From: Gammaproteobacteria bacterium
GTDB lineage: Bacteria > Pseudomonadota > Gammaproteobacteria > Pseudomonadales > Halieaceae
NCBI GenBank assembly: GCA_030426545.1
Contig: JAUHYL010000045.1
Location: 1 to 32,844 of the forward strand
Length of the DNA stretch: 32,844 nucleotides
Direction of reading: 5' to 3'
Shown here one piece after another: positions 23,379-32,844 of the stretch. Every line of letters starts with the position of its first letter. The first letter of the stretch is position 1. Both the position numbers and the translations under genes were made by a program. The notes beneath the pieces are model-generated. The model saw only the letters and a list, made by a program, of their open reading frames with translations, made no database searches and had not been told where the DNA came from.

Positions 23379-23704
23379 CGCTCACCATGGGCTGCACAGA
23401 GATCGGCCAATACCTACTGTGTAAAGTCCCGCTTTACAGCGGTTGCAATCCACGGGCGCGCCAAGTACAGTGCGCCCCGTCAGCTAATGCTGTCTAGCGT
23501 CATCCTGGTTGCAGGCACCTTTATGTGCCGCCCACCCCGCGAAACTTCGCAACGGTGGCCCACTTCCTCGCAAGTGCCTCTTTGAATGCCGCGCGTGCCC
23601 TAGCGCACATCACGGTACGTACACCCCTACCCTGCGGTGCACCAGCCAAAACCTGCCAGACGGCAGCCATTACTGCGGGTAACCGTTTACCCGGAAGGAA
23701 TACT
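23379..23704 (+). promoter_or_regulatory. TonB-receptor/helicase intergenic region
   Basis: 326 bp without a convincing gene. A 7-bp hairpin TGTAAAG-tcccg-CTTTACA (23420-23438) lies about 40 bp after the receptor gene, with no U tract. The rest is presumably the promoter and a long leader of the helicase mRNA. Long leaders are common for cold-inducible helicases, but no specific cold-shock element is seen. CGGAAGGAA lies 5 bp before the ATG at 23705. Confidence 0.4.
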
Positions 23705-24973
23705 ATGAAGTTCAACGAACTCGGTCTTGCCGAGCCCATTACGCGTGCCGTGCACAAGAAGGGCTACGACAAGCCATCCCCCATTCAGGAGAAGGCCATT
23801 CCCATCGTTCTCAAGGGCCAGGACCTGATGGCGTCAGCCCAGACCGGCACGGGCAAAACAGCAGCATTCGTGCTGCCCCTGCTGCAACGCCTGGCTGACG
23901 GGCCGCGCCCGGCCGGTAAAAAAGTTCGCGCACTGGTCGTTACCCCCACAAGGGAACTGGCTGCGCAGGTGCATGCGAATATCATGGACTACAGCATCAA
24001 CACGCGGCTCTCCAACCTCGTAGTCTTTGGCGGTGTAAATATCGGGCCGCAGATTCGCAAACTGCAACGCGGTGTGGACATACTGGTGGCAACGCCGGGC
24101 CGCCTCCTTGATCTACACGGGCAGAACGCAGTGCAGCTGGATAACGTGGAAATTCTGGTACTGGATGAAGCGGATCGCATGCTGGATATGGGCTTTATTC
24201 ACGACATACGCAAGCTGCAGTCATTGCTGCCCACCCGCAAACAATCATTGCTGTTCAGCGCAACGTTTTCAGGCGAAATTCGCCAACTGGCGAAGACCAT
24301 GCTGCATCAGCCAGTTGAAGTAGAAGTTGCACCGCGCAACAGCACCGTGGAAAGCGTGCAGCAATGCATACACCCCGTGGACAAAGCCCGCAAGGCAGAG
24401 CTACTGGCGCATCTAATCAACAGCAGGAACTGGCACCAGGTACTGGTGTTCAGCCGCACCAAGCACGGCGCCAACAAACTGGTGAAGACGCTCGCCAAGT
24501 CAAACATCCGCGCCACCGCGATACACGGCAACAAGAGCCAGGCACAAAGAACGCGCGCACTGGCAGATTTCAAAGCCGGCAAGGTTGACGTGATGGTCGC
24601 CACCGACATCGCCGCGCGCGGCATCGACATAGTCGAACTGCCTCACGTGGTGAACTTCGACCTACCCAACGTACCGGAAGATTACGTGCACCGCATCGGT
24701 CGCACCGGCAGAGCCGGCGCAACCGGCGAAGCAATTTCGCTGGTAAGCGCAGACGAGTTCAAACAGTTGCGCGACATCGAGCGGCTGATAAAGACCAACC
24801 TGCAACGCGAAGAAATCGAGGACTTTGAGCCCGACCACCAGCTACCCGAATCCAACCAGGCACCCAGGCAGCGTCAGGGTGCCGGCCGCAAGCCGACGAA
24901 CTTCAAACAGCAGCCGGGAAACGGCAATCGGCGGGGTCGCTCGCGGCGCAGAGGTAAAGCCAGAGCGGCGTGA
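23705..24973 (+). CDS. rhlE: DEAD-box RNA helicase, RhlE-like
   Basis: ATP-dependent RNA unwinding in ribosome assembly or RNA decay. 422 residues from the ATG with the strong ribosome-binding site. The frame also runs upstream to 23525, but without coding character. The order is the Q motif ([10 protein letters not shown]), Walker A AQTGTGKT (45-52), PTRELAAQ, the DEAD box [16 protein letters not shown] (FSATFSG), and in the second RecA domain [10 protein letters not shown] and [10 protein letters not shown]. The last 60 residues are a basic Arg/Gln/Gly-rich tail that probably binds RNA. The RhlE name rests on the short N-terminus and tail and is less certain than the family. Confidence 0.9.
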
Positions 24974-25039: not shown

Positions 25040-25045
25040 TATAAT
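25040..25045 (+). promoter_or_regulatory. -10 box of the tRNA promoter
   Basis: A perfect TATAAT lies 18 bp before the first tRNA-Ile copy, followed by a GC-rich discriminator (CGCGCC). This arrangement is normal for stable-RNA promoters. TTGCTC at 25022-25027 is too close for a standard -35. A transcript from here would read through both tRNA copies. Confidence 0.5.
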
Positions 25046-25062
25046 CGCGCCTTCCCTCCTGT

Positions 25063-25129
25063 GGGCCCATAGCTCAGTTGGTTAGAGCATCCGACTCATA
25101 ATCGGTTGATCAGTCCTATAGGCCCTGCA
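25063..25129 (+). pseudogene. Truncated tRNA-Ile(CAU) copy lacking the T arm
   Basis: The first 39 bases match the 5' exon region of the downstream tRNA-Ile except for one base (A for T at tRNA position 7). They include an intact D arm and anticodon loop CUCAUAA, here followed directly by UCGG with no intron. After the variable region the T stem-loop is missing, and the 3' acceptor strand is degenerate (TATAGGCCCTGCA in place of a GGGCCCACCA end). It should not yield a functional tRNA. It looks like the decayed original or a duplication scar at an insertion site. Confidence 0.75.
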
Positions 25130-25217
25130 ATGAGGAGAAAGTGGCCAATTTCCAGCCACTCAAATCTATGGAAATTCGATGATAATCATAGGCTTATGAT
25201 ATCTTCGACTGTTATAT
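25130..25217 (+). other. Spacer between the two tRNA-Ile copies, with two hairpins
   Basis: 88 bp rich in A/T. AGTGGC (25140-25145) pairs with GCCACT (25155-25160), and ATCATA (25185-25190) pairs with TATGAT (25195-25200) across a GGCT loop. They may act as processing signals or be traces of recombination. No gene is present. Confidence 0.4.
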
Positions 25218-25537
25218 GGGCCCTTAGCTCAGTTGGTTAGAGCATCCGACTCATAAGGAATCTTGTGACCCGTGGCAGTAATGCCATGTGGAAAAACTGG
25301 ATGAATTCAGGGAAACCTCAGCGGGTAATGCCGGTGGCAATCCTGAGCCAAGCCTGCCAGGCGTGGCAGGAAGGTGCAGAGACTAGGTGGTGCGGTGCGA
25401 TCTCACCGTGTAATACACCAGTAGCGTCCAGCACCCCAGCGGGTAGTGCCGTGGGTGATGATATAGTCCAGGTCAGGGGGAAACTCCTGGTAGCCAGAAT
25501 CGGCAGGTCCGGCGTTCAAATCGCCGAGGGCCCACCA
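25218..25537 (+). tRNA. ileX: tRNA-Ile(CAU), split by a group I intron
   Basis: Exon 1 (25218-25254) gives the acceptor strand GGGCCCU, the D arm, and the anticodon stem and loop through the anticodon C25252-A-T25254. Exon 2 (25498-25537) starts AAUCGG and carries the T arm CGGCG-UUCAAAU-CGCCG, acceptor AGGGCCC, A73 and an encoded CCA. Joined, they form a 77-nt cloverleaf with a perfect 7-bp acceptor stem. The CAU anticodon, the A37-A38 that follow and the similarity to E. coli ileX point to the minor isoleucine tRNA, whose C34 is changed to lysidine by TilS to read AUA. Elongator Met is the alternative. Position 27/43 is a U-C mismatch. Confidence 0.9.
25255..25497 (+). ncRNA. Group I intron (IC3-like) in the tRNA-Ile anticodon loop
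   Basis: A 243-nt self-splicing intron placed after anticodon U36. Conserved core elements are present in order: TCAGGGAAACCT (25307-25318, P element), AATCCTGAGCCAAGCC (25339-25354, Q), GTGCAGAGACTA (25374-25385, R) and GATATAGTCC (25460-25469, S). R and S can form P7 through GACTA/TAGTC. The internal guide GTGA (25264-25267) pairs with exon UCAU to form P1 with the expected U-G wobble at the splice site. A GAAA-capped hairpin near 25476-25490 fits P9. The intron ends in G25497. No endonuclease gene fits inside. The insertion site and guide are those of the known Azoarcus tRNA-Ile intron. Confidence 0.93.
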
Positions 25538-25688
25538 TTTTCTACTTTCATACATGCACTTAACGGCCCCTATACTGAGGTCTTTTTGTATATTGAGCTA
25601 TGAATTGCGTTGTTTGCTATTGAAGTGATCCAGACCCACGCAGAAAGCAATTTTTGCCCAAAATTCTCCCTTGTCAATAAAGTTCATA

Positions 25689-27257
25689 ATGACAAAGCGA
25701 AAAAAATCACTGAAAAGAGAGCGTACGAAAAAGCGATCTCAGAATCAGGATTCTCCGAAGCTGCAGTCGCCTAGGGCCACTGATAGATCAGGCACGCGAC
25801 GGCTGCTAAGTAAGCACACAGTTCCAATTATTGCCGCTGTGATAGGCGTAGTTGGATTGATCTTGGTCGAGCTTCTCAAAACCTTCGTACCGTCAAGCAC
25901 ACCGACAGTGCCTCTGCAGACGATAGGTGAGGTTAGTAATTTCGGCGAAGGAGTTCAGATAATCGGATCAGAGGGATTCGAGATTAAGTATGAAACCTAT
26001 GGGGTAACACGTGGCCAATTTGATCAGCTCGTACAGGAACTACAAGTGTCACGAGAGATGGCGAAACGGCTGCTCAAAGTCTTAAAAGAAAAGGATGTTG
26101 AGCTATATGAACGAGAGTCCAAGTTCAAGCAACTCCTCGTCATGTATGCAGAGCTAAAGAACAAGGTAAACGCACGAGAAGACGATGTTTCCCAAGAGGT
26201 AGTTAAGCTGCTTGAACGTGGAGAGCTTGAGGAAGCAGAGCAGCTTCTGACTGAATCCCTCCAGAGACGATTAAGTCGAATAGGCGAAGATCGTGTTTCA
26301 GCAGCATCGGATGCATTCGAGTTAGGTAGACTCAAATTACTTCAACTCGACATTTATGCCGCCTTTGATTTCGCTCGGCAGGCAGTTGAGCTTGATCCGA
26401 GCAATATCGAATATCTCACCGGGCTGGGGACTATTGAGATCGAGCTAGAGAACTATGAGTCCTCGACTGAACACCTGAGCAATGCGCTTTCGTTAACAAT
26501 TGAAAAGTATGGCGAGAATTCCCCTGAAACTGCCGACGTATACAGCCGCTTAGGTATAGCCGCGGTTATGGGGGACATGCATCACGAAGCAGTAAGCTAC
26601 TTTACTCGCACTATCGAGATAGTTGTAAAGGTATATGGGGAAGATTCCTATATAGCTGATCAAATGCGCAACAGTTTGGCCGGCGCGTTAGCCGGCGTGG
26701 GGGAAATTGAACGAGCCAATGAACTGGCTGAAAGCTCGATAAAGAAACTACTCGAGAATAGGAACAACCCACATTACGCTCTTGCGCTCAATAATTTTGC
26801 GATATTCAAGCGCAACATTGGTGAGTTGCAAGAAGCGATAGCGGCATTCACTCAAGCAGAGGAGGCGTATTGGAAAGAAAACGATAGGCCGGGCCCGTTT
26901 CTCGCCAATATACTTTCAAGCAAGGGTGAAATTATGATCGCAGTCGGCAATTTGGATGAGGCTATTCCAATATTGGAAAGAGCTAATAAAATTTACACAG
27001 AAATCTACAGTCCATCTAGCACTAATGTAATATCTTCGATACAAAATTTGGGCATGGCATGGCATGCCGCAAAAAACTATTCGAAAGCTATTGGCTATTA
27101 CCATGAAGCGCTCGACTTATGTAGGGATAAGTATGGCGAAAATCACCGGTATACGATGACCTTTTTGAATTTGATTGAGCGCGCGGAAAATGAGCTACCC
27201 TTGAGGGTTTACTTTGAAGATTTTGATCGTGGGCTGCGGGTAGAAGAGCTCAAATAG
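25689..27257 (+). CDS. Membrane-anchored tetratricopeptide-repeat protein
   Basis: 522 residues, noticeably richer in A/T than the core genes. The N-terminus is very basic (TKRKKSLKRERTKKR) and is followed by one membrane helix (about residues 45-64, VPIIAAVIGVVGLILVELL), so the bulk may face either side. A segment of about 80 residues after residue 110 is probably a coiled coil (ELQVSREMAKRLLKVLKEK). From about residue 170 on, tandem TPR motifs of the kinesin-light-chain type follow (EKYGENSPETADVYSRLG, EVYGEDSYIADQ-like). The ATG at 25689 is preferred to a TTG at 25671. TPR proteins of this kind are common scaffolds or sensors in defence islands, but no effector domain is attached. The function is unknown. 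Confidence 0.85.
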   Translation: MTKRKKSLKRERTKKRSQNQDSPKLQSPRATDRSGTRRLLSKHTVPIIAAVIGVVGLILVELLKTFVPSSTPTVPLQTIGEVSNFGEGVQIIGSEGFEIKYETYGVTRGQFDQLVQELQVSREMAKRLLKVLKEKDVELYERESKFKQLLVMYAELKNKVNAREDDVSQEVVKLLERGELEEAEQLLTESLQRRLSRIGEDRVSAASDAFELGRLKLLQLDIYAAFDFARQAVELDPSNIEYLTGLGTIEIELENYESSTEHLSNALSLTIEKYGENSPETADVYSRLGIAAVMGDMHHEAVSYFTRTIEIVVKVYGEDSYIADQMRNSLAGALAGVGEIERANELAESSIKKLLENRNNPHYALALNNFAIFKRNIGELQEAIAAFTQAEEAYWKENDRPGPFLANILSSKGEIMIAVGNLDEAIPILERANKIYTEIYSPSSTNVISSIQNLGMAWHAAKNYSKAIGYYHEALDLCRDKYGENHRYTMTFLNLIERAENELPLRVYFEDFDRGLRVEELK

Positions 27258-27281
27258 GAAGTGAATTTATGAGAGTGTTAG

Positions 27282-27932
27282 CTAGCCCATGATTGCTCTG
27301 TAGACATTCTGAATTATTTGGTCCTTCTCATTAAACGGGTTTACTGTGCAGCTAAGTGGTCGTGCATTCTGATAGGTTTGGTACAGGTTTTTCACTATCG
27401 AATCCAATACCAGTAGGGCATCTTCAATCTCTTCCAAGCTTATCGCTCGGAAAAGAGATTGGTGTTCGTTTTCCTGAGTAAACACTGCGTGAGCTATTAC
27501 TCGATTCCGTATGGTTTTGCATTCTGCTTGCAAAAATCTCCTAGGGCCTTTAGCCATACGGAATAGCGTCTTCAAGTCCGCCAATCTCGGAAATTGCGCT
27601 CCGTCAAGGTAACCGGGATTCAACTCAAGGGCTTCCGGCCGTCGTAGTCTAAATACTGTAGCCGTATAGTCGTTCACATTCTCTATACAGTGTCTGTTGA
27701 AATCAGAAAAAGACTTCCCATTACTAGTATCGTCAGCCAAGCGACCCAAGTAAACAAAGAGCGTATATTGAAGGGCGGCGGTGTAGACTCTCCAGAAATC
27801 TGCATTTTCGTTGGCGGCGTCTACAGCATCACCATCACCCATTGCCATCCAGAACCCCATATAGGAGTAGAGCAATGTGAGCGCGCTCTCGGTTTCGCCT
27901 CGCATGAAATCAAACCAAGACTTCGAATCCAT
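27282..27932 (-). CDS. AbiU2-like HEPN-domain protein
   Basis: About 216 residues from the ATG at 27932. An in-frame TTG at 27998 would give 238. Neither has a clear ribosome-binding site. The helical sequence with FWRVYTAALQYTLFVYLGRLAD in the first half and AECKTIRNRVIAHAVF in the second matches the HEPN AbiU2-type domain. RNRVIAH (142-148) is the R-x(4-6)-H motif that gives HEPN proteins RNase activity. AbiU2-like proteins are linked to abortive infection or toxin-antitoxin behaviour. No obvious antitoxin (MNT-type) gene is adjacent. It converges on the TPR gene with only 24 bp between the stops. Confidence 0.7.
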   Translation of the reverse strand: MDSKSWFDFMRGETESALTLLYSYMGFWMAMGDGDAVDAANENADFWRVYTAALQYTLFVYLGRLADDTSNGKSFSDFNRHCIENVNDYTATVFRLRRPEALELNPGYLDGAQFPRLADLKTLFRMAKGPRRFLQAECKTIRNRVIAHAVFTQENEHQSLFRAISLEEIEDALLVLDSIVKNLYQTYQNARPLSCTVNPFNEKDQIIQNVYRAIMG

Positions 27933-28077
27933 TTCTAGAACATGCCGTTGCACCAGGGAGTGTGATGTGCGATTTGAAATCCACTTTATGCTCGCCAAAT
28001 AACCGATTCTGAAGCCCTTTATAAAGGGACTGGCAGGGTCATCAACAGTATCTCATGGTTCGAGGTCGCTCCTAAAT

Positions 28078-29517
28078 TCACCAATTCAGAAACGTAGAAA
28101 CTGAAGTTGACAGACTGCGTTCATCGGCAGGCTGCAAACCACCTCGGTCTTGTTTTTCCCCTATCAGCGTACTTATTAGTCTCTGCTCATCACTCTGAGA
28201 TTGATCATCTGACGCAGTGCCCGACGAACTCTTCACTCGAGGCGGCTTCGCAACCCATCTAGTGAGATTCTGACAGACATCACCGTAAAACTTTACCAGC
28301 TCATCTTCCGCTATCTCAACGAAAGCTTTGACACTCTTAAACTTCGCGCCCAAATCAATGATTCGAACTAGCTCGAATGAGCTTGGCATGTCCTTTATAT
28401 TGGGCGGAATAAGTCGACCACCACCTTCTTCTAAAAGCTCTGCGACAGGCATTAATGTAGTTGGTATTCGCTTAGGCCAGCTTGCCTTCAACACCAGATT
28501 ATCTGTGTTACATCCCTTCAATTGTCTTGCCAACCAGTTTATCGAGGCCGTCTGCCGCTTCGTGTCACCTGGAGCATCCAGCCTGATAGACAAATCCAGC
28601 GTCTTCCTTAGGAAATCACCAGTCAACACAACCCTACCTGCTGTATTGGGTATTTCTATCTCTGCCGACAGGGCATGCTTGGCAGTTAAATCGTGAATAT
28701 CATCATGCAACCTAGAAGCAGGATCCTTTACGTGCCTTCTAGGCAATGATGTTTTTACCGGCTTGCCCAAAGCAACAGACAACTGAATTGCCAAGTACTT
28801 TTGTAATTGATGCCAGCTTGCCACAGCTTCAGATACTTCATTTCCCGATTTCTTTAGTGGGGCACCTTGGTGGACTTCCAGACAGGTGCTTTTCCAGCCG
28901 GGCGACATTCTCAAACCTCTTGTGACACCCGAATAGTCATGTCGAAGGAATCGCACAAGTTCGTTCAATATGTAAGCCTGCTCAACATCATCAACAACCT
29001 TGCTTTCGATTAGCAACAGAGCCTTTGACAAAATAGATAGCCAAGAAAAGTGAAACAATCCGGTCGAACGTATCTTTTGCTTACTTACCTTGACAGGGTG
29101 ATGAGTGGCTAATGCAGCAAACTGATTAGAAACTGTGATAACGGCGTCCACGCCCTGTGCTTTTGCAATATTAATATACTCCTCTACCTGATCAACATTC
29201 AGCTCACTTTGACCCACCTTGGACTCAACCAGAGCGCTCCACATTTTCTTTCCGGTCGTTACTATTATCAGGCCATCCGGACGTGATTTCGGATTGTCGC
29301 CCTTGAAAGATACTTCCGTGAAAGACTGAATAGTTGAACGTTTACCGATTGGCGCACCCGCATCAGACAAGACCGCATGAGCGAAATCTGGAACAACTGT
29401 AAATGCAGCCAGAACGACGGAGGTTGCCCTCTCCTCTTTTTTACTATCGGCGACGACGGGCACCAGTCTAGCAGGAGAACCCTTTATCAAATTTGATCTA
29501 AGTTTTTCCGCATTCAT
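28078..29517 (-). CDS. PD-(D/E)XK-type nuclease-like protein of unknown function
   Basis: 479 residues, A/T-rich. The N-terminal 160 residues show the layout of a restriction-like fold: E30 in KKEERATSVVLAAF, D81 in SRPDGLIIV, E98-S-K100 in SALVESKVG, and Q110 in a helix after it. LITVSNQF-like and HFSWLSIL segments follow. The remaining 300 residues have no motif I recognise and may recognise a target. The C-terminal tail is Ser/Gln/Asp-rich and low in complexity (about 420-450). It follows a small overlapping ORF and precedes the HEPN gene on the same strand after a 145-bp gap. A role in DNA or RNA defence is inference. Confidence 0.8.
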   Translation of the reverse strand: MNAEKLRSNLIKGSPARLVPVVADSKKEERATSVVLAAFTVVPDFAHAVLSDAGAPIGKRSTIQSFTEVSFKGDNPKSRPDGLIIVTTGKKMWSALVESKVGQSELNVDQVEEYINIAKAQGVDAVITVSNQFAALATHHPVKVSKQKIRSTGLFHFSWLSILSKALLLIESKVVDDVEQAYILNELVRFLRHDYSGVTRGLRMSPGWKSTCLEVHQGAPLKKSGNEVSEAVASWHQLQKYLAIQLSVALGKPVKTSLPRRHVKDPASRLHDDIHDLTAKHALSAEIEIPNTAGRVVLTGDFLRKTLDLSIRLDAPGDTKRQTASINWLARQLKGCNTDNLVLKASWPKRIPTTLMPVAELLEEGGGRLIPPNIKDMPSSFELVRIIDLGAKFKSVKAFVEIAEDELVKFYGDVCQNLTRWVAKPPRVKSSSGTASDDQSQSDEQRLISTLIGEKQDRGGLQPADERSLSTSVSTFLNW

Positions 29518-29818
29518 GCCTTAATCCATAATCCAAAATAAGCCCAATATTTTTGTACTTTACAGCATTATGAATTGCAAGGGTTTTCAGTAGTCTATGT
29601 TGCTGCGATACGTTTTCACCAGACTTCAAGAAAATTCCTCGGATCGAGTATCCGCGTCGAGATAATTGCTCGACCAGCGATAGTTTAGAATTGGGAAGTA
29701 AGTCAACCGACCAGCATCCTGTACCTGGCCACCTAGGTGGCTTGCAGTGTTGCCCGTTATAGATGCAAGAACAAAGCGGGCTACTATTGCGGAATCTCGA
29801 CCATCGCAAACCACTCAT
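29498..29818 (-). CDS. Short unknown ORF overlapping the nuclease-like gene
   Basis: About 106 residues ending 20 bp inside the start of the PD-(D/E)XK-like gene, which would couple their translation. The second half (SVDLLPNSKLSLVEQLSRR, SGENVSQQHRLLKTLAIHN, NIGLILDYGLRHE) reads like ordinary protein. The first 35 residues are Cys/Trp/Pro-rich and unconvincing, and there is no ribosome-binding site. It may be the surviving 3' end of a broken gene. The remaining bases up to 29890 hold only short open pieces. Confidence 0.3.
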   Translation of the reverse strand: MSGLRWSRFRNSSPLCSCIYNGQHCKPPRWPGTGCWSVDLLPNSKLSLVEQLSRRGYSIRGIFLKSGENVSQQHRLLKTLAIHNAVKYKNIGLILDYGLRHECGKT

Positions 29819-29890
29819 GGAAAGTACAAGACACAAGGATCGCTTTCAGGTGTTGGGACGGTTATACGATACCCTTTGAAGGTATGCGTT

Positions 29891-30916
29891 CTACCGTTTA
29901 ACCCTTGGCAGAATCCTGTCCAGAACCTTGTACATTTCCTTTGCTGCATTCGGCTCTGAAACTATCCTGACAGCTCCTGTGCCGGGCTCGTTATCTTCCT
30001 CATAGTCATCCTGCATTGGCAGACACCCAAGGAAAGGAGAGCCGCCAAATCTAAATACATAATTGTCTCCTTGGATGACACCGCAAGCTGCACACGTATT
30101 AGCCCAGTATCGCCCATCCCACATTTTGGAGTAACGATTCTTAATAGTCTTAGGCCGAGGTAACGGTGGCTCGGTCTCACAAAACGGTACGCCTTGCCAC
30201 CAGAAAACCGGAATCTCCTCATGGCACTTAAAACACTCAAAGGTTTCTGCGATGTAGAGTGCGCGGGTAGGGTCTTTGAAGGGAGTGTATAGGTATCTAT
30301 CAATTCCCCACTTGTCAGCCACAGTTTGAATGTGTTCGGGGTCGCCAGCGCAATCAGTGCAAAGCTGCGGCCCTTTCAGCCGACCTTCCAAAACATGCCA
30401 ATCCGCTGGTGACTCCATGACGTTTTCAGCTTGCAGCTCCACCCAAGGAACCTCAAGTTCATTGGCCTTGCGCTCGCCAACCTGGTGGGTATGGCGTATT
30501 TCAATTGCCAATGCTGGTGTGTTACCCCTATATCCAATCACATCACAAACAAAGCTTGAAATACCAACTTCTTCCTTTGCGCTTGAGAATGTGCCAGGGG
30601 GAAGCTCAGTTTGATATTCAATTCCACACGCATGGCAGCCCCGCCAAAGCAAAATCAGTTTCCTGCCTGCCGCGTTATCACGTATTGAGCGGGCAACCAG
30701 CATTTTGGCAGTTTTGTGCAGTACATGCTCAGGGCTGCAATTTGAAGAAGGCGCGTGGGAAAAGTGTTTCACCCTAACCTCGCCGGCCCGAAGTGTCAGA
30801 CGTTCATTACATGCTGGACAGGTATAATGGCGCCCCTTTGTGGCGTCATCAGCAGCCACCAACGCGCCAAGGTCATCACAGCCATAGGGCACCGACAATG
30901 CGAGTTGCTCACTCAC
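29891..30916 (-). CDS. CoiA-like zinc-finger nuclease protein
   Basis: 341 residues from the GTG at 30916, selected because a strong GGAGGTTG lies about 7 bp upstream. The frame extends further but without support. The N-terminus carries a zinc knuckle (CPAC, C33 and C36) followed by VKHFSHAP and a Cys-x3-H-like segment, as in competence protein CoiA and relatives. A PD-(D/E)XK-like core follows, with D125 in SFVCDVIGYRG and E139 in LAIEIRHTH, where the usual lysine is Arg. Further CxxC pairs (CTDC, CFKC, CAAC) lie in the C-terminal half. CoiA acts in DNA processing during transformation in firmicutes. Island-borne relatives are often defence-linked. The exact role is unknown. Confidence 0.7.
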   Translation of the reverse strand: MSEQLALSVPYGCDDLGALVAADDATKGRHYTCPACNERLTLRAGEVRVKHFSHAPSSNCSPEHVLHKTAKMLVARSIRDNAAGRKLILLWRGCHACGIEYQTELPPGTFSSAKEEVGISSFVCDVIGYRGNTPALAIEIRHTHQVGERKANELEVPWVELQAENVMESPADWHVLEGRLKGPQLCTDCAGDPEHIQTVADKWGIDRYLYTPFKDPTRALYIAETFECFKCHEEIPVFWWQGVPFCETEPPLPRPKTIKNRYSKMWDGRYWANTCAACGVIQGDNYVFRFGGSPFLGCLPMQDDYEEDNEPGTGAVRIVSEPNAAKEMYKVLDRILPRVKR

Positions 30917-31199
30917 AGCGCGCAACCTCCAGTACGTCCAGCAATGACTCACACGCAAGCCTGTTCCAGCTTCCCGTGTAGCAAAGGAAACCGGCCTCAA
31001 AAAAATCCAGATAGAAGCTATCCACTCGGAAGCGCCTACACCGTCCGTAATCAGAAAAAACCCAGCTTAAGATACGTAGCTGAACTTTCGAAGTCATCAC
31101 TGTGTAGCCACACACGTCGCTTTTTCACGCAGGTGACTTTCCCCCAGGAGGCACCCCCGCCCTCTCGGCACTACCCTAAAACCACCAAGGAGAAATGCC
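30917..31199. promoter_or_regulatory. Divergent intergenic region
   Basis: 283 bp between the leftward CoiA-like gene and the rightward Cys-repeat gene. It should hold both promoters. I see no strong -35/-10 pair. AAGGAG at 31187-31192 is the ribosome-binding site of the rightward gene, with correct spacing to the ATG at 31200 and too short a spacing to the ATG at 31195. Confidence 0.3.
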
Positions 31200-31514
31200 A
31201 TGCTTCGGATCGCAATCTTATACCTGTGCTTCACCCCGCCCATGCTGGCTCTCGCACAAACCCCCATACAACGCCAAGGCGATTCCTGCCCCACGGGCAC
31301 CTACCGCTCCGGGGACTACTGCAAACTCCTCCCCAGCTCCCGCGACCAGTTCATCATCCAGAAATCCGGCAACAACTGCCCTCGTGGTTTCTATTCCCAT
31401 GGCAACTATTGCAAGCGTATTTCGGGGAGCAGAAGGAAAGCCATCCCCAGAGAGTCAGGCAAGAAATGCCCCACTGGCTGGCGCAAATCTGGAGATTACT
31501 GCGTTGAGATCTAG
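31200..31514 (+). CDS. Secreted Cys-rich triple-repeat protein
   Basis: 104 residues. A signal peptide (MLRIAILYLCFTPPMLALA-Q) leads to the periplasm or outside. The mature part consists of three modules with the pattern C-P-x-G-[YFW]-x(2-3)-G-x-YC: SCPTGTYRSGDYC, NCPRGFYSHGNYC and KCPTGWRKSGDYC. They are separated by 18-21 residues containing basic, polar linkers. Six cysteines could form one disulfide per module. No catalytic motif is seen. It is a single gene with its own ribosome-binding site. The repeat type is one I cannot tie to a known function. Confidence 0.75.
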   Translation: MLRIAILYLCFTPPMLALAQTPIQRQGDSCPTGTYRSGDYCKLLPSSRDQFIIQKSGNNCPRGFYSHGNYCKRISGSRRKAIPRESGKKCPTGWRKSGDYCVEI

Positions 31515-31749
31515 GTGAGTGAAGCCACACTTGCGAAATCTTCGAAAATTCCTAGAAAATCATCGAAATACCACCAAAATACCTTGCCTATTTCATCGAA
31601 TATCCTGAGTTCGGACGCATATCGGAAACATGGAAAATGTGCAGGATACGATGCTTTGCAAGGCATTGTGACAGATTCGGGAACTGCAAATCTTTGATGC
31701 TGGATATAGACACGGCATGGACTAGTTCACCTAATAGGCAACCCGGCAC
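31515..31749. other. A/T-rich non-coding stretch
   Basis: 235 bp with several imperfect repeats of TTCGAAAA/ATCGAAAT type near 31535-31575 and no convincing gene, terminator or RNA. It separates the Cys-repeat gene from the convergent leftward gene that ends at 31750. Confidence 0.3.
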
Positions 31750-32547
31750 TCAACCGAATCGCCGGGCTACGAACTGGTTGAATTTTAGACACTTGGAATA
31801 GAAGTCCTGCAGTGCAGGCCCCTCTTCTGTATCCTCTCTTGAGATCACCGCTATCAATTCTTCCCAGGGCACAACCCGAATCTTGATCTTCTCCATCAGG
31901 GGCTCGAACGCCTCGTCGTACCAACGGGCTCTATCTGCTTCGTCGTATTCGCTCACCCGCTTCTGAAGCGTTTCTTGAATATGGCCCTCGTCCATATATG
32001 TTGAAAAAATTCCCTCATTTATCCGGCTCTCAGGGGCAACCACCAAGAACGCAATCGCTTCGAGTTGATTCGGGTGCAGCCCCGCCCTTCGGATGACCTC
32101 AGCTATACACGCCACATTCCTGGCTGCCTGGTTGTAGTACCCGGCATTCGTAACCCGGGAAGAGAGCTTGCTGAACATCTTCGCTTCAGTAACGATGAAC
32201 TGCTTCGCTTCAGGCAGCAGTGACAGATCACCTGCCCCATTGTCGCCGATACTGAAGTGGCCGATGACACCATCCGCATGAGTCCAGGATTCCGCTAGCT
32301 TGTCACCTCGGTATCGGGGTAGAAATGGCGATGGCAGGAGTGCCTCAGAGTACCAGTTGCTGTCTGCGAGAAACTGAAGATCATGCTCAACGCTCCGGTG
32401 GTGTTGAAACCAGTCCAGCACAAGTCGCAGCATCCAGCCCTCGTTGTACAGGTCCGTGGCTGGGAAGTTCCTGCTGTCGCTCGCGGCGTTGCCCAGTAAC
32501 TCTGCGATCCGCGTTTCTGCAATCTGTCCGTTTGAATGTACTTCCAT
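31750..32547 (-). CDS. Nuclease-like protein with an EAK motif, unknown function
   Basis: 265 residues, soluble. The middle shows a PD-(D/E)XK-like order: D92-G93 after SWTHADGVIGHF, E121-A-K123 in FIVTEAKMFSKLS, then a helix with Q140-AARNVACIAEVI. The N-terminal helix contains Glu residues that could complete the site. This pattern is typical of nuclease-like proteins found near restriction-modification genes. The start at 32547 is the only sensible ATG, and its ribosome-binding site is weak. It is divergent from the gene entering at 32801, which looks like a type I modification subunit. Confidence 0.65.
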   Translation of the reverse strand: MEVHSNGQIAETRIAELLGNAASDSRNFPATDLYNEGWMLRLVLDWFQHHRSVEHDLQFLADSNWYSEALLPSPFLPRYRGDKLAESWTHADGVIGHFSIGDNGAGDLSLLPEAKQFIVTEAKMFSKLSSRVTNAGYYNQAARNVACIAEVIRRAGLHPNQLEAIAFLVVAPESRINEGIFSTYMDEGHIQETLQKRVSEYDEADRARWYDEAFEPLMEKIKIRVVPWEELIAVISREDTEEGPALQDFYSKCLKFNQFVARRFG

Positions 32548-32800
32548 CGATAGTCAGTCTAACAATAGACGCGCTTTCGTGCGGCTTTGATCAGGGGGGG
32601 TACCTCCCCCTTTGCCACCGCATTCTCATCATCACCTCCCCGTGAAAATTTTTCAGTAACCCCTAAAGGCCACCCGGAAAACTGAGAAAAGGCGTGTATC
32701 TACAATAGAAGCCTTTCGGGTTTCGTCACCGCCGTTCTGGCAACCATACCAACAGCTCAGCAACACCAACCATCACCTGTAACCGCAAGGAGGCCCATCT
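32548..32800. promoter_or_regulatory. Divergent upstream region of the right-edge gene
   Basis: 253 bp with no gene. A -10-like TACAATAG lies at 32701-32708 without a clear -35. A GAAAATTTTTC near-palindrome is close to 32644. AAGGAGG (32787-32793) is a full-strength ribosome-binding site for the ATG at 32801. Confidence 0.35.
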
Positions 32801-32844
32801 ATGGCCAAACGTAAATCAGCATCAGCCGACAGCAACACCGAACC
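32801..32844 (+). CDS. Start of a gene, possibly type I restriction modification subunit (partial)
   Basis: Only 14 codons are inside the window (MAKRKSASADSNTEP-like, basic then polar). The AAGGAGG ribosome-binding site makes it a real start. Many HsdM proteins begin with a similar MAKK/Ser/Thr leader, and the neighbours are nuclease-like. The HsdM idea is therefore inference from context, and the rest of the gene would settle it. Confidence 0.4.
   Translation, partial: MAKRKSASADSNTE

Follow-up and report, generated by a model that had tools for sequence, protein, structure and literature searches.

Results

Organization of the locus

The stretch of DNA analysed here, 32,844 nucleotides in full and referred to as the window, carries on its forward strand a tRNA-Ile(CAU) gene in which, judged by its sequence, a complete group I intron is inserted after U36. 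The 5' exon occupies positions 25218-25254 (37 nt, the last base being U36), the intron 25255-25497 (243 nt), and the 3' exon with its encoded CCA 25498-25537 (40 nt). Upstream, on the same strand, the native tRNA promoter with its TATAAT box (25040-25045) and leader spans 25040-25062. It is followed by a pseudogene of tRNA-Ile(CAU) without an intron (25063-25126), which occupies the native locus, and by a spacer (25127-25217) that separates this dead copy from the intron copy. Downstream, from 25538 to the end of the contig at 32844, follows a flank of low G+C content.

The intron and its fold

A sequence-only reading of this DNA had proposed a group I intron in the anticodon loop of tRNA-Ile(CAU), inserted after U36 and equipped with a GUG guide, and this identification held. 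With cmscan, positions 25243-25490 matched the full length of the group I model RF00028 (model positions 1-253) at 80.4 bits (E 3.9e-19, cut-off 50), and this was the sole RF00028 match in the genome. As read from the sequence, P1 is formed by UCAU and GUGA with a U-G pair at the 5' splice site (U36, position 25254) and an AAG:CUU extension, and both a P9 GAAA hairpin and the terminal G (25497) are present. The 243 nt of the intron leave no room for a homing endonuclease gene, and none is found inside.

The core elements named in the same reading were supported by an alignment of 35 tRNA-Ile(CAU) introns, onto which a structure drawn from the window intron was laid. The core helices were paired in nearly all cells (P3 244/245; P4, P7 and P8 175/175 each; P6a 207/210; P9 198/210), and changes on both sides of a pair were seen in P3, P4, P6a and P8, with none in P7. 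P1, P2, P7.1 and P7.2 fitted poorly over all 35 introns (0.78, 0.55, 0.50 and 0.60, respectively, with the best slid version of the structure scoring higher), and this is where the other intron lineage described below aligns badly to a structure drawn from the window. In the six introns that are of the same type by sequence (the window, L110, L148, Klebsiella phage phiKp_21, and the IMG/VR contigs L077 and L080), P1, P3, P4, P7, P7.1, P7.2 and P8 were paired in every cell. This amounted to 24/24 cells for P1, 24/24 for P7.1 and 28/28 for P7.2, while the slid-structure control reached at most 0.79, 0.71 and 0.57 for these three helices. Pairing was incomplete in P6a (35/36), P9 (34/36) and P2 (28/35). 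Both-sided changes occurred in P2, P3, P4, P6a, P7.1 (3 of 4 pairs), P7.2 (5 of 5 pairs), P8 and P9 of this set, and at no pair of P1 or P7.

Identity of the split tRNA

Run without its intron option, ARAGORN found zero tRNAs in the window; with the option it reported a tRNA(CAU) spanning the insert. The joined exons gave a complete cloverleaf with CAU, as had been expected from the letters alone. The joined tRNA is 80.5% similar over 77 nt to places annotated as tRNA-Ile in the three best E. coli records, which are records of 49-51 kb (5933 of the 5990 matching records lay at 60-80%). Since it resembles both these places and the tRNA-Ile(CAU) found at the same locus in relatives, we assign the split gene by likeness to tRNA-Ile2 (CAU) rather than to a methionine tRNA. 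TilS converts C34 of tRNA-Ile2 to lysidine, and a TilS gene is present in the genome.

In an alignment of the 30 best tRNAs of relatives, drawn from 56 other genomes, the intron copy stood out by a U7-A66 pair and by a CGGCG/CGCCG T-arm in its 3' exon. Neither feature was present in any of the 20 aligned tRNAs that come from the same family.

Type of the intron and its phage relatives

Compared with the Rfam consensus, the window intron has 37 additional nucleotides inserted after the P7 5' strand and before the P3 3' strand; P7.1/P7.2 (25386-25419, forward strand) lie within this insertion. We take this position to be the one at which P7.1/P7.2 mark subgroup IA. The distance from P7 to the S element is 79 nt in the window, compared with 49-55 nt in four tRNA introns which we label IC3-like (three from the same order and one from the class; four of nine introns were readable by the pattern). 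Introns of subgroup IC3 are not known to have an insertion between these two strands, and in this respect the window intron falls outside IC3. On these sequence features the window intron is of the phage kind (IA-type). Subgroup IA2 is described as traditionally tied to phage introns in a 2025 phage-intron study (PMC11878797).

Of 50,697 phage records that were searched, 37 contained a match. Four Klebsiella phage records matched the 5' exon and most of the intron at about 76%, and a fifth matched partly; Muenster and phiKp_21 were fetched, and KP13-7 and RCIP0023 are known by their BLAST match only. The introns of Muenster and phiKp_21 scored 104.1 and 103.7 bits, respectively, against RF00028. 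In both phages (loci L065, from Muenster, and L064) the intron sits after the CAU of an unannotated tRNA-Ile(CAU) and has the GUG guide, the terminal G and P7.1/P7.2. The split gene of Muenster lies at 302826-303136 of the record (L065 2998-3308), in the gap between an annotated tRNA-Ser and an annotated tRNA-Asn; its joined exons received no tRNA call from ARAGORN, perhaps because of a longer D-loop. Vibrio phages matched the intron alone, which in the three that were fetched stands beside terminase-annotated pieces. The IMG/VR contigs L077 and L080 hold tRNA-Ile(CAU) genes that are interrupted by an intron at the site used in the window, and of the candidate stretches 3 of 63 in one set and 2 of 5 in another proved to be intron-bearing tRNA-Ile genes.

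Similar introns were also seen in tRNA-Lys(UUU) or tRNA-Thr(UGU) genes of IMG/VR contigs (L226 at about 3647, L241 at about 5778, L261 at about 1375 and L276 at about 6598). These are 4 of the 100 viral sites according to ARAGORN, and those in L226, L241 and L261 coincide with RF00028 matches.

Phylogeny of the intron cores

A maximum-likelihood tree was built from 57 cores, obtained from 81 rows by dropping viral rows more than 0.90 alike, which left 19 viral rows; of the Vibrio terminase introns only L066 entered. Loci at which the core pattern failed were left out (L174, L146, L147, L149, L154, L033, L067, L207, L208, L210 and some of the 100 viral sites), the tRNA-Leu locus L159 was outside the main tree, and L161 was outside a second, core-only tree from which P7.1/P7.2 had been removed.

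In the main tree the window intron grouped with that of L110, an uncultured gammaproteobacterium, and that of the viral contig L269 at UFBoot 98, and these three were joined by a Klebsiella phage intron and one more viral intron at 84. The chromosomal tRNA-Ile introns of other bacteria formed a single 28-row bipartition, at UFBoot 94 in the main tree and at 100 in the core-only tree. Among clades of up to 14 rows in the core-only tree, only window plus L110 was listed, with no support value, and the viral grouping of the window intron is not confirmed by that tree. L148 was poorly placed, with tRNA-Leu introns at 63. When gaps were ignored, pairwise core identity of the window intron was 0.91 to L110, 0.905 to an intron of the other lineage (lineage A) and 0.903 to L269; this measure fails to split the lineages, so that it is the trees which set them apart. 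On our reading, the sequence 3' of the L269 intron resembles a terminase Walker B region.

The shared insertion site and guide had been taken in the sequence-only reading as a sign that an Azoarcus-type intron has spread between proteobacterial classes. The intron in the Azoarcus tRNA-Ile(CAU) has the same host tRNA, the same site and the same GUG guide as the window, which is what speaks for such a spread; it is reportedly classed as IC3, and it is not known to have a P7-P3 insertion. The P7.1/P7.2 insertion of the window is, however, missing from the four IC3-like tRNA introns, the window intron groups with phage introns in the main tree, and a separate lineage already occupies the site in the class. 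We regard this descent as highly improbable and have dropped the claim.

Occurrence of introns at the tRNA-Ile(CAU) site

Group I matches were found in 32 of 390 genomes of the order, with at least 10 tRNA-Ile(CAU) introns at the site (28 best loci newly fetched), and in 56 of 369 genomes of the class, with at least 18 such introns (29 best loci newly fetched). These counts are lower bounds, with up to five candidates per genome scored and the best loci fetched. The tree places 26 of those 28 site introns in the other lineage and L148 outside it; L174 is absent from the tree. An intron at this tRNA site is thus not rare, and lineage A holds the site widely in the class. Within the genus of the window, none of 17 other genomes had a group I match among up to 29 candidates scored per genome. 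When the family was searched with the split gene, 104 of 140 genomes gave a match, mostly to the 5' exon alone, and intron matches beyond the own genome were strong in G872 and weak in G022 and G802.

The tRNAscan-SE 2.0 paper (PMC8450103) describes Ile2 introns in Acidovorax and in Burkholderia, and attributes the missing fMet or Ile2 of 36 genomes to group I introns. It appears that different intron lineages have settled at this one tRNA site at least twice, or three times if Azoarcus is counted.

Two further occurrences were noted. Far outside the Proteobacteria, a candidate division FCPU426 bacterium (L141) has a tRNA-Ile(CAU) intron at the same site. Within the same order, eight loci (L033, L146, L147, L149, L154, L159, L161 and L162) are tRNA-Leu(CAA) genes with group I introns, apparently inserted between positions 32 and 33, a site that presumably differs from that of the cyanobacterial tRNA-Leu(UAA) intron.

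A broken native gene upstream of the split gene

The upstream intron-free copy was absent from the sequence-only reading. Its 5' end lies 155 nt from that of the intron copy, and it scores 38.0 bits against the tRNA model RF00005 (cut-off 29). Its first 43 nt equal the tRNA-Ile(CAU) allele of the genus, the GGGCCCA acceptor included, whereas the T-arm is lost and the 3' end degraded. In spite of the 38 bits as a tRNA, the copy was rejected as a working gene, the T-arm being missing and ARAGORN giving no call.

The surroundings identify the upstream copy with the native locus. In the genus, the intron-free tRNA-Ile is preceded at the same place by TATAAT in seven of eight loci and by TATACT in the eighth; a generic promoter scan did not have the TATAAT at 25040-25045 among its predictions. 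Homologues of the genes on the left side of the window stand beside the intron-free tRNA-Ile in 6 of these 8 loci (10-18 kb each), and none of the six right-flank ORFs that were compared was matched in any of the eight. Phage sequences gave no match to positions 25100-25230 at E values up to 1.

We consider it probable that a horizontally acquired tRNA-Ile(CAU) with a phage-lineage IA-type intron has replaced the native gene, which now lies dead upstream.

The two-copy layout in other genomes

A similar layout was found in two other genomes with the window type of intron. In G146 (locus L148), behind rpoD, a truncated tRNA-Ile copy lies 157 nt ahead of the intron copy, and no difference separates the two 5' halves across 37 nt. 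In L110 a decayed tRNA-Ile copy lies 243 nt ahead of the intron copy, and several positions differ between the two. A broken intron-free upstream copy was thus present in 3 of 3 bacterial genomes with the window intron type, compared with 1 of 28 of the other lineage (Fisher's test, p = 0.0009, for a pattern noticed first and counted after, in three genomes only). For this count L174 was not located, L156 offered only 156 nt of upstream sequence, and L148 was typed by sequence and not by tree. None of three viral loci had the two-copy layout. The sole match in lineage A, L182, has only 13-16 nt of the tRNA start repeated upstream, so that the phage-type lineage may not be the only one with this layout. 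In L182 (1370-1490) a 16-nt repeat of the tRNA start stands 107 nt upstream with an inverted copy in between, an arrangement that may hint at the origin of such fragments.

The recurrence of the layout in two more genomes, together with a remnant that has undergone decay of its own, makes it very doubtful that the assembly has artificially fused two tRNA-Ile variants, as might be suspected of a draft genome in 141 contigs.

The main rival to replacement is a tandem duplication of the native tRNA, after which the intron by itself would have invaded one of the two genes, through homing or reverse splicing, and the gene left without an intron would have decayed. Such a course would account for the identical 37-nt 5' halves in L148 and for the 97% likeness of the 5' halves in the window, and it suits L148 better than the window. 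The T-arm and the 7-66 pair of the window's intron copy are, however, unlike those of the 20 same-family tRNAs, remnant and intron copy differ at several positions in L110, and homing would have to be performed by a 243-nt intron without a homing endonuclease gene. We therefore judge duplication to be unlikely.

G872, a genome from the same family assembled as one contig, offers a related case: it has an intact native tRNA-Ile and intron fragments about 31 and 37 kb away from it, besides a third, weaker fragment far off. The fragments lie at 1532120-1532285 and 1538793-1538916 of G872:C1 (locus L318), and a further one is at about 7300-7530 of L321. One of the G872 fragments still has a tRNA-Ile 3' exon at its end, with a different T-arm, beyond which genes for a cytosine methylase, Vsr and HNH follow. 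We read the G872 fragments as what decay has left of a similar acquisition next to a restriction island. L321 and G872 also have a sequence in common near a fragment, GATGAAGAGCCGAG, which is perhaps a mobile element.

Possible dependence of the cell on the split gene

The earlier reading had pointed out that growth may depend on the ribozyme and that a second tRNA-Ile(CAU) should be sought in the genome. No other tRNA-Ile(CAU) was found among the 29 tRNA matches of the genome (97.85% completeness, 141 contigs), but the tRNA set of the assembly is incomplete. One other CAU tRNA (L019) is 69% alike, and we take it to be initiator-like by the mark in its anticodon stem. The split gene itself had five matches in its own genome; among the matches listed, three are at the locus and one is a Thr-type tRNA. 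The draft assembly also has no tRNA for Trp, Tyr, Ile(GAU), Ala(UGC) or elongator Met. With several other tRNAs missing, the absence of a second tRNA-Ile(CAU) is a weak argument, and an intact copy may be unassembled. Dependence of cell growth on the split gene is therefore plausible but weakly supported.

The split gene could then be an inactive leftover of a phage or island, with a working tRNA-Ile(CAU) in an unassembled part of the genome. The tRNAs missing from the assembly and the decayed intron fragments beside the intact native gene of G872 are in line with this explanation. Here, however, it is the native locus that is broken, the exons and core helices of the window intron are intact, and no second copy is seen at 97.85% completeness, for which reasons we hold a leftover to be rather improbable.

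The right flank and the search for a vehicle

The G+C content is 0.482 to the right of the split gene and 0.588 to the left of the remnant (1-25062). Along the contig it runs at 0.53-0.61 between 24.0 and 25.5 kb, falls to 0.42-0.49 between 25.5 and 27.6 kb, and is about 0.52 past 30 kb. The flank at 25538-32844 encodes a TPR protein, an AbiU2-like HEPN protein, a CoiA-N protein and unknowns (Pfam), and it is likely a foreign island. Its proteins gave a TPR match in PHROGs and otherwise weak matches at E 0.02-0.17, and in PADLOC only TPR and DruB-type matches. The AbiU2-type HEPN protein (27282-27998) and the CoiA-N protein, which has weak similarity to DruB (29891-31000), are possible defence cargo.

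A classical integration event was considered but gained no support: an integrase, an att repeat and the displaced native 3' half were all sought and none was found. Pfam revealed no integrase among the seven right-flank ORFs of the window, whose contig stops 7.3 kb past the gene, and none in six flanking ORFs of L110 or in six of L148, one of the latter being an IS transposase. No exact 12-nt direct repeat of 25041-25217 exists elsewhere in the contig. The native 3' half was absent from the own genome with up to 3 mismatches allowed, and a general pattern for it had no match in G000, G146 or the L110 genome. Among 10 proteins near the tRNA in genus relatives, there were one Mutator transposase and two rve-type transposases, and no phage-type integrase. 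Neither plasmids nor E. coli genomes gave a match to the intron gene. The putative carrier of the split gene would be a phage or an island.

Discussion

What the DNA itself shows is the intron and how it folds, both exons, a native copy that is dead, the deviating T-arm and a layout that recurs; from these we infer splicing in the cell, replacement of function, and delivery of an entire tRNA gene by a phage or island. In the course of events that we propose, a phage or island would deliver a whole intron-bearing tRNA-Ile gene, and the native copy would decay afterwards. Transcription, probably from the native promoter or from one in the spacer, would yield a pre-tRNA whose internal guide sequence, GUGA, base-pairs with the 5'-exon bases UCAU. 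Guanosine would then attack after U36, the freed U36 would attack after the terminal G at 25497, and joining of the exons would restore CAU-A37. Only after splicing could TilS turn C34 into lysidine for the decoding of AUA, and the intron copy would now be the supplier of tRNA-Ile(CAU).

Several known systems share parts of this arrangement. Introns in protein genes of phages, such as that for the terminase large subunit of Vibrio phages, are similar in core sequence, and viral introns surround the window in the main tree; the window intron differs from them in being hosted by a cellular tRNA gene and in having no homing endonuclease. The Klebsiella phages Muenster and phiKp_21 (Alcyoneusvirus) agree with the window in tRNA site, GUG guide, terminal G and P7.1/P7.2, but their split tRNA has another body and a longer D-loop and sits in a phage tRNA cluster. 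The chromosomal introns of lineage A have the same host tRNA, site, guide and core helices as well as a P7-P3 insertion, but they form a separate bipartition, have a different P7.1/P7.2, and are accompanied by a truncated upstream copy in 1 of 28 cases.

For the cyanobacterial tRNA-Leu(UAA) intron, a paper by Rudi (2002) reportedly deals with recombination of the entire tRNA locus. Transfer of an intron together with its tRNA locus has been proposed there, in another tRNA and another intron lineage than in the window, and we know of no dead native copy beside that intron.

A 2014 review (PMC3984707) states that all phage introns observed to date are in protein-coding genes, and the Klebsiella jumbo phage Muenster is reported to have six tRNAs (PMC8407769). 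In contrast to the statement of the review, Muenster carries an overlooked intron-bearing tRNA-Ile. A phage-lineage intron in a replacement tRNA beside a dead native gene was not found in the open-access literature, most subscription papers being outside the scope of the search. What is new is the replacement layout, the intron itself belonging to a known kind.

It is an old question for group I introns in essential tRNA genes whether the intron moves alone or the whole tRNA gene travels. With a broken native gene adjoining the intron copy, here and in two other genomes, the whole-gene route becomes directly testable. As a tentative extension, which we offer with considerable reserve, phages or islands might spread self-splicing tRNA-Ile(CAU) as a ready replacement that lands at the native gene, after which the native gene is lost and the cell relies on a phage-lineage ribozyme for AUA. 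An intron that splits the anticodon loop in the DNA would leave tRNA-targeting integrases no intact anticodon-arm target, and a replacement of this kind could therefore hold the site against rivals.

Just upstream of the tRNA locus, a gene for a DEAD-box RNA helicase is located at 23525-24973 of the window. DEAD-box helicases can aid the folding of group I introns. The position of this gene beside the intron is probably a coincidence, as homologues also lie near the intron-free tRNA-Ile of two relatives (L069 and L076).
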